Assembly (NCBI GenBank): GCA_947460975.1
Contig: CANHGO010000006.1
Location: 1 to 64,000 of the forward strand
DNA: 64,000 nt
Direction: 5' to 3'
Source: Cytophagaceae bacterium
GTDB lineage: Bacteria; Bacteroidota; Bacteroidia; Cytophagales; Spirosomataceae
Shown: one piece after another, positions 52,459-60,607 of the stretch
How positions within the stretch are numbered: position 1 is the first letter of the stretch
How the letters are laid out: every line of letters starts with the position of its first letter
Position numbers and translations under genes: made by a program
The notes under the pieces: model-generated
Told to the model about the DNA's origin: nothing
The model's database searches: none
The model's input: only the letters and a program-made list of their open reading frames with translations

Positions 52459-54912
52459 ATGATTTACACTTTACCACCCCAATCATTAAAATCATTATTG
52501 ATTAGCTTAGATAGTAGGCAGATTTATGACGCTCCTAATACGGCTTTCTTTGCAGTCAGGGGTATTCATCATGACGGACACCAATACATTGAAAACTTAT
52601 ATAAAAGCGGCATCAAAGAATTTATCGTAGAAAAGGTAGCATGGACCGGTATTTTATCTGAGAAAGCAAAAAAATGGAACGATGCGGATTTTCATGTAGT
52701 AGAAAATAGTATTCAAACTTTACAAAATTTAGCGGCCCTACATCGTAGTAAATTCGACTACGATCTTGTGGCAATTACAGGTTCAAACGGTAAAACTATT
52801 TGCAAAGAGTGGCTTGCTACTTTACTGAATGGAACTTATAATTTGGTCAAAAGTCCCAAAAGTTTTAATTCACAAATAGGAGTTCCATTATCTGTATGGG
52901 CCATGAAACCTAATCACAATTTGGGGATATTTGAAGCAGGTATTTCGCAACCTGGTGAAATGGCAAATTTAGAAACCATTTTAAAACCAAGCCATGGAAT
53001 TTTAACCCATTTTGGAGAAGCTCATGGAGCTAATTTTGGAAATGAAGATTTAAAATTGCAAGAAAAATTAAAGCTCTTCAAAACGAGTAAAACTCTGATT
53101 TATCGATCAGGAAAATGGGATAAACTAATCCATACCTACATAAAAAGTATAAATCCGGGAATTGAACTGATCGAATGGAGCACAGAGGATCCAACTAAAA
53201 ATATTTTTGTTCATTTTAATAGATCTGCCCATGAAACTCAAATTAAATTAAAGAAAGCGTCGCAAAGCGAACCTTTTATAGACATAAAAACGGAATTAAC
53301 GGATGATGCTTCCTTAGAAAACATATGCCACTGTTTAATCATGGCCCATGTGTTAGCCATGGATAATTTAGCATTAAACCAAGCTATACGAAGAGTAAAG
53401 CCAATATCCATGAGGCTAGAAATAAAAGAAGGACTCAGGGATATAAAAATAATTGATGACTCTTATAACAACGACATCGATGGGTTAAGGCTGGCTTTAC
53501 CCCTATTAATGAAATATGAGACAAAGAAAAAAATATTAATTCTAAGCGATTTTCTAGAAACTGGTTTACCCGAAGAAAACTTATACAATGAAATAAATAC
53601 CATGATATTAAATCAAAAAATTGATTTAATCATAGGTATAGGTAGCCAAATTTCAAGAAATAAAGATAAAATTACCGGAATTGAGGTTTATCAATCGACG
53701 GAAGAATTTTTGAAATCAGGAAAGTTAAATTCATTTTACAATGCAGCCATCCTATTGAAAGGGGCTAGAAAATACAATTTTGAAAAGCTAGTGTATGCAT
53801 TAGAAAATAAATCACATTGCACCCAATTAGAAATAAATTTAGATGCACTTCAACATAACTTAAGTTACTATAAAAATAAAATAGGCCTAGAAACCAAATT
53901 AATGGTCATGATAAAGGCTTTTGCCTATGGAGCGGGCGCTGTGGAAATTGGTCAAATACTCCAGCAACAAGGAGTGGATTATCTGACAGTTGCTTATACT
54001 GATGAAGGAGTTGAATTACGCAAAAACGGAATTTATACACCCATTATGGTGATGAACCCCCAAATTGAAGAATTTACAAAACTAATTGAATATTCATTAG
54101 AGCCAGAAATCTATAGTTTTGAATTACTAAAAGCATTAGATGAATATTGCCTTTTAAATGAACAAAACATTAAAATACATATCAAATTAGATACTGGTAT
54201 GAAAAGATTAGGTTTTGAAAGCCACGAAATAGAATCATTAGCTAACTGTTTAGCAGAAATGCCACAATTATGGGTAGTCAGTATGATGAGCCATCTAGTA
54301 GCCTCAGAAAGTATAGAGCATGATTTGTTTACGAAAAACCAAATCGCCGAATTTAAAAAAATGTCTACCATATTAGCTCAAAAATTAAGCTATAAGCCCC
54401 TTTTACATATAGCAAATTCAGCTGCAATAGAGAATTATCCAGAAGCAAAATTGGATATGGTCAGATTAGGAATCAGTTTATATGGCATTACACAAAACCA
54501 AAAAGAAATTAAAAAAATCGAAAACGTTCTAACGTTAAAAACTTTTATATCTCAAATAAAACAGATTGACAAAAACGAAACAGTTGGATATGGTAGAAAA
54601 GGAAAAGTAAATAAAAAAAGCACCATTGCCACATTAGCTATTGGCTATGCGGATGGCTACCCAAGATCACTCGGAATGGGAAAAGGACACTTCGAAATTA
54701 ATGGAGAATTATGCCACACCATTGGAGCCATTTGTATGGACATGACGATGGTCGACATAAGTCATTTAAAGCATGTAGCGACCGGAGATACGGCTTTAGC
54801 CTTTGGCGGAAAAATACAATTATCAGAAATAGCTAATAATGCCAACACAATCCCTTACGAAATAATGACTAACATCAGCAGTCGGGTTAAAAGAGTCTAC
54901 ATAAAAAATTAG
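52459..54912 (+). CDS. murF-alr: MurF-alanine racemase fusion (bifunctional)
   Basis: The 817-residue protein joins MurF (1 to about 455; P-loop GSNGKT at 108-113; DDSYNNDIDGLRLAL near 334) to a fold-type III alanine racemase (about 458-817). The racemase has PLP-lysine Lys486 in MIKAFAYGAG and catalytic Tyr711 in VGYGRKG. The racemase makes D-Ala and MurF adds D-Ala-D-Ala to UDP-MurNAc-tripeptide. The fusion is common in Bacteroidota, so both ends of peptidoglycan side-chain supply are tied in one chain. It has no neighbour in its operon and is followed by a terminator. Confidence 0.95.
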   Translation: MIYTLPPQSLKSLLISLDSRQIYDAPNTAFFAVRGIHHDGHQYIENLYKSGIKEFIVEKVAWTGILSEKAKKWNDADFHVVENSIQTLQNLAALHRSKFDYDLVAITGSNGKTICKEWLATLLNGTYNLVKSPKSFNSQIGVPLSVWAMKPNHNLGIFEAGISQPGEMANLETILKPSHGILTHFGEAHGANFGNEDLKLQEKLKLFKTSKTLIYRSGKWDKLIHTYIKSINPGIELIEWSTEDPTKNIFVHFNRSAHETQIKLKKASQSEPFIDIKTELTDDASLENICHCLIMAHVLAMDNLALNQAIRRVKPISMRLEIKEGLRDIKIIDDSYNNDIDGLRLALPLLMKYETKKKILILSDFLETGLPEENLYNEINTMILNQKIDLIIGIGSQISRNKDKITGIEVYQSTEEFLKSGKLNSFYNAAILLKGARKYNFEKLVYALENKSHCTQLEINLDALQHNLSYYKNKIGLETKLMVMIKAFAYGAGAVEIGQILQQQGVDYLTVAYTDEGVELRKNGIYTPIMVMNPQIEEFTKLIEYSLEPEIYSFELLKALDEYCLLNEQNIKIHIKLDTGMKRLGFESHEIESLANCLAEMPQLWVVSMMSHLVASESIEHDLFTKNQIAEFKKMSTILAQKLSYKPLLHIANSAAIENYPEAKLDMVRLGISLYGITQNQKEIKKIENVLTLKTFISQIKQIDKNETVGYGRKGKVNKKSTIATLAIGYADGYPRSLGMGKGHFEINGELCHTIGAICMDMTMVDISHLKHVATGDTALAFGGKIQLSEIANNANTIPYEIMTNISSRVKRVYIKN

Positions 54913-54975: not shown

Positions 54976-55009
54976 AAAATCCTTAGGACTATATCTAAGG
55001 ATTTTTTTT
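54976..55009 (+). terminator. Terminator after murF-alr
   Basis: AAAATCCTTAG (54976-54986), 8-base loop, CTAAGGATTTTTTTT (54995-55009). The perfect stem with eight T is 64 bases past the stop. Confidence 0.93.
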
Positions 55010-55098: not shown

Positions 55099-55270
55099 AT
55101 TTAGCTTAAAAGCTAATAACTATTTAGTCGTATAGCTATATATTTAGCTTTATTGACAATAATATTTGTTTTAAAAGCTAATTAATAAAAAGGTGGGTAT
55201 ATAATTAGCCCTATTAAAGCTAAATGATACTATTTGGAAATTAATAAAGAAATACCTAAATTAGCTAAAT
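55099..55270. repeat. Field of AGCTAA/TTAGCT half-sites before the ArsR gene
   Basis: TTAGCTT-AA-AAGCTAA (55101-55116) is a perfect palindrome. Further copies or variants are TATAGCTATA (55131-55140), TTTAGCTT (55143-55150), AAAGCTAAT (55174-55182), ATTAGC (55204-55209), AAAGCTAAAT (55216-55225) and TTAGCTAA (55261-55268). Seven sites in 172 bases end 14 bases before the regulator's ATG, a layout expected of an autoregulated operator array. Confidence 0.7.
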
Positions 55271-55281
55271 AAGTAATAATA

Positions 55282-55641
55282 ATGCGTATAGAGGATATAG
55301 CAAAAGCTTTAGGAGACGAATCAAGAAGAAAAATTGTAGAATTATTGCAGTCAGGGGAATTACCTGCCACGGCCATTTTTGAACAATTTTCTTTTGCCGC
55401 ACCCACTATATCCAGACATCTTTCTGTCTTAAAGGAAGCTGGTATTGTAAGCACTCGCAGAAATGGAGTTTTTATTTACTACTCGATTGAAAAAGAAACC
55501 TTGCAAATTCTGTCCAATTGGCTCTCCCCTTTTTTACCCGAGTCAACGGAAAAAATAAAATCAATACCGAAAGAAAGATCGAGTCCTGTAAAGAAAAAAG
55601 ATTTTGAAAATCCATTTGATAAATTTCAAAGTGAATTTTAA
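55282..55641 (+). CDS. ArsR/SmtB family repressor without metal-binding cysteines (SdpR-like)
   Basis: The 119-residue winged-helix regulator has IEDIAKALGDESRRKIVELLQSGELPATAIFEQF, recognition helix APTISRHLSVLKEAGIV and wing STRRNGVFIYYSIE. No cysteine is present, so it is not a classical metal sensor; SdpR-type autorepressors look like this. The C-terminal tail (about 90-119) is charged. It sits directly behind the AGCTAA repeats and 22 bases before a small gene of unknown function, probably its co-regulated partner. Confidence 0.9.
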   Translation: MRIEDIAKALGDESRRKIVELLQSGELPATAIFEQFSFAAPTISRHLSVLKEAGIVSTRRNGVFIYYSIEKETLQILSNWLSPFLPESTEKIKSIPKERSSPVKKKDFENPFDKFQSEF

Positions 55642-55663: not shown

Positions 55664-55999
55664 ATGAAACGATTTGTAATCATTATTCGAGGCCCAATAC
55701 AAGGAATTTCTGGCGAAAATAGTATAGCGAACGAGGAGGAATTAGAGGTGATTAAGACTTGGCTAAGAGACCTTAAATCGAAATATTCCGACATGCTTTA
55801 TCAGAAATTTACGGGTCCACAAAGTTACTTTTCAAAGAGTGGAAAAATTGAAAATAAAATAATCCAACAAATTGACGGAGGTGAAATTTCGCAAATTGTC
55901 ACCTTGATTTTGCCATCGATCGACTTGGCCACTGAAATAGCCATGAGCTTTCCGTTCCCAAATACTTTTTACACCATTGAGCTGAGAGAAATGAGTTAA
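55664..55999 (+). CDS. Small protein of unknown function, YCII-like alpha/beta
   Basis: Start taken as ATG 55664 (a TTG codon precedes it), giving 111 residues. It opens with MKRFVIIIRGPIQGI and has NEEELEVIKTWLRDLKSKYSDMLYQKFTGPQSYF and a C-terminal PFPNTFYTIELREMS. The shape suggests a small ferredoxin-like fold as in YCII/DGPF-domain proteins, but the match is weak. Its operon partner is the ArsR-type gene 22 bases upstream, so it may be the output of that switch. No signal or membrane helix. Confidence 0.75.
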   Translation: MKRFVIIIRGPIQGISGENSIANEEELEVIKTWLRDLKSKYSDMLYQKFTGPQSYFSKSGKIENKIIQQIDGGEISQIVTLILPSIDLATEIAMSFPFPNTFYTIELREMS

Positions 56000-60217: not shown

Positions 60218-60607
60218 TTATTTTTTTGTAGCAGAAGTTCGAGCTGGAGCTTTTGCTGGCGCCTTCGGTTTTGTAGTACTTGCTACTGCAGGCTTAGTTG
60301 CTACCGGCTTTGGCACATCCAACAATAACGAAACTTGCTTTTGCTTAGATGCTTTTTTTGCTACTTTTTGTTTTTTTTTAGCTTCCTTAATGGCTAATTT
60401 TTTAGCTGCTTTGGCCGCTTTTTCTTTTTTCTTAGCTAAATCCTTAGCTTGTTCGTCCATCAACTTGTGGTATTTCTTAGAAATTTCTCCCAAAGCCTTA
60501 TGACTTAATTGAACCATTTTCTTAGCATTTTTCTCGCTTAACCCCTTCAATTTAGGCAATACGACTGTTGCTAAAACATCAACTAGTACTTTATCAGATT
60601 CACTCAT
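60218..60607 (-). CDS. Lys/Ala-rich histone H1-like basic protein
   Basis: The 129-residue protein has an N-terminal part (about 1-55; VLVDVLATVVLPKLKGLSEKNAKKMVQLSHKALG), which may form helices. Residues 56-129 follow, rich in Lys, Ala and Pro (AKKLAIKEAKKKQK; PKAPAKAPARTSATKK), with the makeup of histone H1 tails. No other domain is recognised. Such proteins compact DNA or bind RNA; several Bacteroidota carry H1-like proteins, but this N-terminus was not recognised. A 10-bp inverted repeat lies upstream. Confidence 0.85.
   Translation of the reverse strand: MSESDKVLVDVLATVVLPKLKGLSEKNAKKMVQLSHKALGEISKKYHKLMDEQAKDLAKKKEKAAKAAKKLAIKEAKKKQKVAKKASKQKQVSLLLDVPKPVATKPAVASTTKPKAPAKAPARTSATKK

Follow-up and report, generated by a model that had tools for sequence, protein, structure and literature searches.

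A helically phased array of palindromic dyads upstream of arsR in Aquirufa, a candidate cooperative operator

Results

The arsR locus and its neighbourhood

The interval 55099-55641, which comprises a repeat array and the arsR gene, was examined within the window (the whole 64,000-nucleotide stretch of DNA that was analysed). Named relatives at 66-96% identity, among them Aquirufa rosea CAR-16, led us to assign the source genome to Aquirufa (Spirosomataceae), a group of freshwater bacteria. The features of the locus are listed in Table 1. A gap of 369 bases separates arsR from the murF-alr fusion gene, and a cluster of AGCTAA/TTAGCT hexamers lies within it. The murF-alr gene precedes arsR in every relative with a readable flank. 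In one Aquirufa clade (L019, L021-L024, L026 and L027) simple repeats, CAGTAGT-like and CCATTTACCATT-like, occupy the space from alr to the array and differ between species. On the downstream side, the gene for a 111-residue protein follows arsR at a distance of 19-24 nt in all 30 Aquirufa loci, and the adjacency of the two genes is also kept in the sister genus.

Table 1. Features of the arsR locus, in positions of the window
Feature	Position	Strand	Description
murF-alr fusion gene	52459-54912		Upstream of arsR; Mur ligase (MurF-like) and alanine racemase domains
Terminator-like hairpin of murF-alr	54976-55005	+	Sets murF-alr apart from the arsR operon
Dyad 1	55101-55116		TTAGC-TTAAAA-GCTAA, 10/10; conserved at offset -181 in the clade
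Dyad 2	55124-55139		TTAGT-CGTATA-GCTAT, 8.5/10; 23 bp after dyad 1; position conserved
Dyad 3	55144-55159		TTAGC-TTTATT-GACAA, 8/10; 20 bp after dyad 2
Dyad 4	55166-55181		TTGTT-TTAAAA-GCTAA, 7.5/10; degenerate left arm; 22 bp after dyad 3
Extra half-site pair	55205-55223		TTAGC-N9-GCTAA; non-canonical spacer; from sequence only
Conserved TTTG	55233-55236	+	Presumed core of the Bacteroidota -7 element; TA half missing here
Terminal element	55261-55276		TTAGCTAAATAAGTAA (TTAGC-N6-AGTAA, 8.5/10); 5' leader
arsR	55282-55641	+	119 aa; winged helix; conserved tail NPFDKFQSEF; Pfam HTH_5, NF033788
Partner gene	55664-55999	+	111 aa; possibly YCII-like fold; adjoins arsR

The hexamer cluster is made of tandem 16-bp dyads

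An earlier note on this DNA had described at least seven AGCTAA/TTAGCT copies in front of the regulator. We located seven exact copies within 168 bases (55101-55268), at 55101 (-), 55111 (+), 55144 (-), 55176 (+), 55218 (+), 55261 (-) and 55263 (+), and the perfect palindrome that had been claimed, TTAGCTT-AA-AAGCTAA, is present at 55101-55116 as an inverted repeat whose 7-bp arms flank a 2-bp spacer. Dinucleotide shuffling of 55099-55270 gave a mean of 1.1 copies and a maximum of 6, and seven were reached in none of 3000 shuffles. Elsewhere in the window, 172-bp stretches held at most 5 copies. AGCTAA is itself about 2.7-fold more abundant in the window than in dinucleotide shuffles (88 copies versus 32 expected), and 75 of these 88 copies fall in coding sequence. 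The motif is not equally frequent in A/T-rich gaps, as the 34 other intergenic gaps contained 6 copies in 4240 bases in total; A/T richness alone therefore does not explain the cluster. Five further copies are packed into 72 bases at 60378-60449, inside a minus-strand gene (60218-60607) for a Lys/Ala-rich, 129-residue protein with a histone-like tail. This stretch was rejected as a second array, since it is coding sequence and the copies arise from codon repetition.

Comparison of 30 orthologous promoters confirmed the repeat field but changed its unit, which is not the hexamer: hexamers are half-sites of a 16-bp dyad, TTAGY-N6-RCTAA (TTAGC-N6-GCTAA), that is repeated in tandem and often extended to TAATTAGY-N6-RCTAATTA. 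When spacers of 0-16 bp were tried, 68 near-perfect dyads (at least 9 of 10 positions) were found with the 6-bp spacer, against 0-2 with each other spacer. At a loose threshold the 30 promoters carried 4-5 dyads each, 131 in total. Dyads 2-4 are imperfect in the window's own genome, and the left arm of dyad 4 is frequently TTATC or TTGTC in relatives. Dyads 2 and 3 are spanned by a match to model R1 (55121-55160, E 4.5e-6). The extra half-site pair, present in L001, L008 and partly in L009, is probably recent or incidental.

The relatives that keep the arsR gene also retain the repeats. Identity at fixed positions, measured in clades A-C with clade D left out (L028 being registered two bases off), was 82-90% for the half-sites, 46-50% for the 6-bp cores, and 32-47% for the DNA further upstream. 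This pattern suggests that the bases in contact are preserved, whereas the spacer changes nearly as freely as unconstrained DNA, and the conserved dyads point to a palindromic operator for an ArsR dimer.

Dyad spacing, helical phase and the presumed promoter

Of 101 spacings between neighbouring dyads, 84 measure 20, 22 or 23 bp; the others are 31-33 bp (11 cases), 42 bp (2 cases), and 18, 21, 27 and 29 bp (once each). Apart from the few odd ones, they correspond to two, three or four helical turns. The terminal element is TTAGCTAA in 29 of 30 promoters and TTAGTTAA in L007, and TTAGCTAA sits 21-23 bp ahead of the start codon. The distance from the last scored dyad to TTAGCTAA differs between clades (64, 74-76, 94-96 or 126-127 bp), and these distances are in phase: among the periods tried from 7 to 15, 10.5 bp per turn gave the best resultant, 0.88. 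The phase test was reduced to distinct values, which removes the effect of ancestry among related species only partly; the Rayleigh approximation on the nine distinct distances (p about 0.001) is therefore optimistic.

A conserved TTTG lies 27-28 nt upstream of the terminal element in 30 of 30 promoters. The -7 consensus of Bacteroidota is TAnnTTTG (PMC6847099). Most species keep the TTTG and lack the TA half, and in the sister genus (L134) no TTTG was found at the corresponding place. If the TTTG marks the promoter, the transcript would begin about 40 nt ahead of arsR, most of the array would lie upstream, and the terminal element would begin at about +20.

The array is confined to arsR

We searched 38 genomes of the genus Aquirufa with a 42-column sequence model that covers two adjacent dyads. 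Matches with E below 1e-3 were found only at arsR. The array is present in 31 of the 33 genomes that have the arsR orthologue, and in 31 of the 32 in which the promoter is present as well. Of the two exceptions, G023 lacks the promoter at a contig end and in G036 (L025) the array is eroded. The orthologue is missing from four incomplete genomes (G003, G026, G028 and G030), which gave noise-level matches or none. A wider regulon is not supported, since the model found the array nowhere but at arsR in the 38 genomes.

Single dyads in the window's own genome gave 12 matches including the array, compared with 36 for a reversed-pattern control, and those inspected outside the array lay mostly in open frames. 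No dyads were found upstream of the paralogous arsR of the same genome (L002). In the related genus (G207, L134) the same genes occur in the same order, with the same ArsR tail, behind three dyads 32-33 bp apart and a terminal element, an arrangement that the 42-column model scores weakly.

ArsR and its 111-residue partner

The ArsR protein is of the ArsR-type winged helix-turn-helix class by its match to Pfam HTH_5 (3.9e-11, 43.1 bits versus a cut-off of 22), and it also exceeds the cut-off of the ArsR/SmtB subfamily model NF033788 (82.6 versus 55 bits). All orthologues share an identical recognition helix. Behind the winged helix follow a variable linker, which is probably disordered, and the conserved tail: these last ten residues (encoded at 55609-55638) are nearly invariant in all orthologues, and from their sequence they look like a short motif for binding a partner protein. 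No conserved Cys was found in the orthologues, and hence no Cys-type metal site; the description of the regulator as Cys-less holds in the sense of no conserved Cys, as the L009 protein has one. Since ArsR/SmtB includes metal-blind members, the absence of a Cys site removes only the claim of metal sensing. In named genomes outside Aquirufa the scan recovered just generic ArsR proteins, with identities of 29-48%.

In the searches of genomes at family and order level, the 111-residue protein occurs only in Aquirufa and one sister genus, one weak match apart. Its 11 members gave no Pfam match at E up to 10 and did not reach the cut-off of PF03795 (YCII), and a search for the YCII family in Aquirufa found nothing. 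Its profile had no convincing relative in the PDB and no PHROGs family, and the protein has no conserved Cys or His. A low-confidence structural model (pLDDT 62) shows a ferredoxin-like order, beta-alpha-beta, beta-alpha-beta. The best TM-score among the fold matches listed was 0.57, to 1s7i (PA1349), which we take to be a member of the YCII/DGPF family (PF03795); no Foldseek match reached E 0.001 or better. Comparison of the profile with DGPF proteins by hhalign was weakly positive (28.5% probability). We regard a YCII-like fold as possible.

Discussion

Cooperative autoregulation is the best supported of the proposals in the earlier note, since the dyads are phased, conserved in their half-sites, always placed before arsR, and absent from all other sites in the searched genomes. 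Its most likely form is autorepression. The position of the array before arsR argues for autoregulation, and most ArsR proteins repress; this usual mode, together with its fit to the leader element, favours repression. We infer that ArsR is the binder, that repression is the effect, and that looping may take part.

We consider it likely that the array is a cooperative operator array of ArsR, which holds the operon of arsR and the 111-residue gene off, possibly with a leader loop. One ArsR dimer would occupy each 16-bp dyad TTAGC-N6-GCTAA, and the whole-turn spacing of 4-5 dyads would place neighbouring dimers on one face of the DNA, where they could bind cooperatively. The leader element is in phase with the array across the promoter, and a short loop may close the filled array. 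The filled array would keep the two-gene operon off until ArsR falls or a signal releases it. More sites would make the response steeper, so that low amounts of repressor would suffice to hold the operon off, and the outcome would be a steep, self-limiting switch dedicated to the arsR operon. Against this reading stand the imperfect dyads 2-4 in the window's own genome and the eroded array of G036, as well as the location of most of the array ahead of the presumed promoter, a position from which repressors have a less direct effect.

The same location would suit an ArsR that activates its own operon: upstream dimers would act from a fixed helical face to stimulate a weak promoter, and the terminal element would be a minor or unrelated site. 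Activators likewise need helical phase with the promoter, some proteins of the ArsR family do activate (the PDB matches include HlyU entries that are named as activators), and activation stays in consideration because the presumed -7 element is poor, lacking its TA half in most species. However, the leader element, which lies past the presumed start, hardly varies and keeps phase with the array; repression explains this better, and the last dyad in clade B reaches the -33 region. We regard activation as unlikely, though not negligible. Less probable still is use of the array by another DNA-binding protein, such as a nucleoid protein or a global regulator. ArsR is linked to the dyads by indirect evidence, and other factors can occupy tandem sites, but a global factor would be expected to have sites elsewhere too, whereas in the 38 genomes the array occurs at this promoter alone and is missing where arsR is missing. 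The size of the dyad and the 11-bp distance between half-sites would also suit a winged-helix dimer.

Two further explanations are very improbable. Paired arms of an RNA element would fit the inverted repeats and the place of the terminal element in the leader, yet there is no Rfam match, the presumed start lies downstream of the array, and helical phasing with both arms conserved around free cores favours DNA binding. Chance repetition in A/T-rich DNA could appeal to the frequent AGCTAA in the window's coding sequence but is contradicted by the shuffles and the spacer specificity, and already refuted by conservation in 30 promoters.

Returning to the cooperative operator array, ArsR operators usually consist of one or two palindromes, so that 4-5 phased sites, kept across the genus for a single operon, would be a large investment for a 119-residue regulator. 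The natural variants, with two-, three- and four-turn spacings and 64-127 bp to the leader element, are suited to tests of cooperativity and looping by ArsR. The partner gene and the conserved tail are possible sensing parts. A switch that involves the 111-residue protein, as the earlier note had suggested, is plausible because the two genes are adjacent in 30 Aquirufa loci and in the sister genus. A more far-reaching version, in which the operon is a self-contained switch with a new layout, is speculative and rather improbable in our estimate: ArsR dimers would form a phased filament that loops to the leader operator, and the 111-residue partner would bind the NPFDKFQSEF tail and so serve as a sensor or anti-repressor. 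If true, an ArsR protein without a metal site would sense by way of a partner protein whose fold is enzyme-like.

Comparison with known systems

The partner resembles YCII/DGPF proteins (PF03795) in the predicted order of its elements and in its TM-score to 1s7i, and differs from them in having no Pfam match, a profile comparison of only 28.5%, and a model of low confidence. ArsR resembles SdpR-type autorepressors (NF033789) as a short ArsR-like protein scoring 81.1 bits; this is below the curated cut-off of 100, and the neighbouring gene does not encode an SdpI-type membrane protein.

By sequence, the closest solved structure to ArsR is SrnR of Streptomyces griseus (7p6f, 6.4e-17). SrnR showed no metal binding by itself and acts together with SrnQ, which binds nickel (PMC7055735, PMC1665450). 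The Aquirufa locus likewise places a metal-blind ArsR beside a small non-homologous partner gene; in contrast to SrnQ, the 111-residue partner has no conserved Cys or His.

CmtR of Mycobacterium tuberculosis, an ArsR/SmtB protein, senses Cd/Pb through Cys, whereas the Aquirufa ArsR has no conserved Cys. Chauhan 2009, as cited in PMC3338718, reports that CmtR interacts cooperatively with multiple operator sites; by that account the two systems share an ArsR-family protein, several operators at its own promoter, and a proposed cooperative autoregulation. What appears to be new in Aquirufa is a presumed autoregulatory region of arsR whose operator array is unusually long, helically phased and genus-wide and serves one operon.
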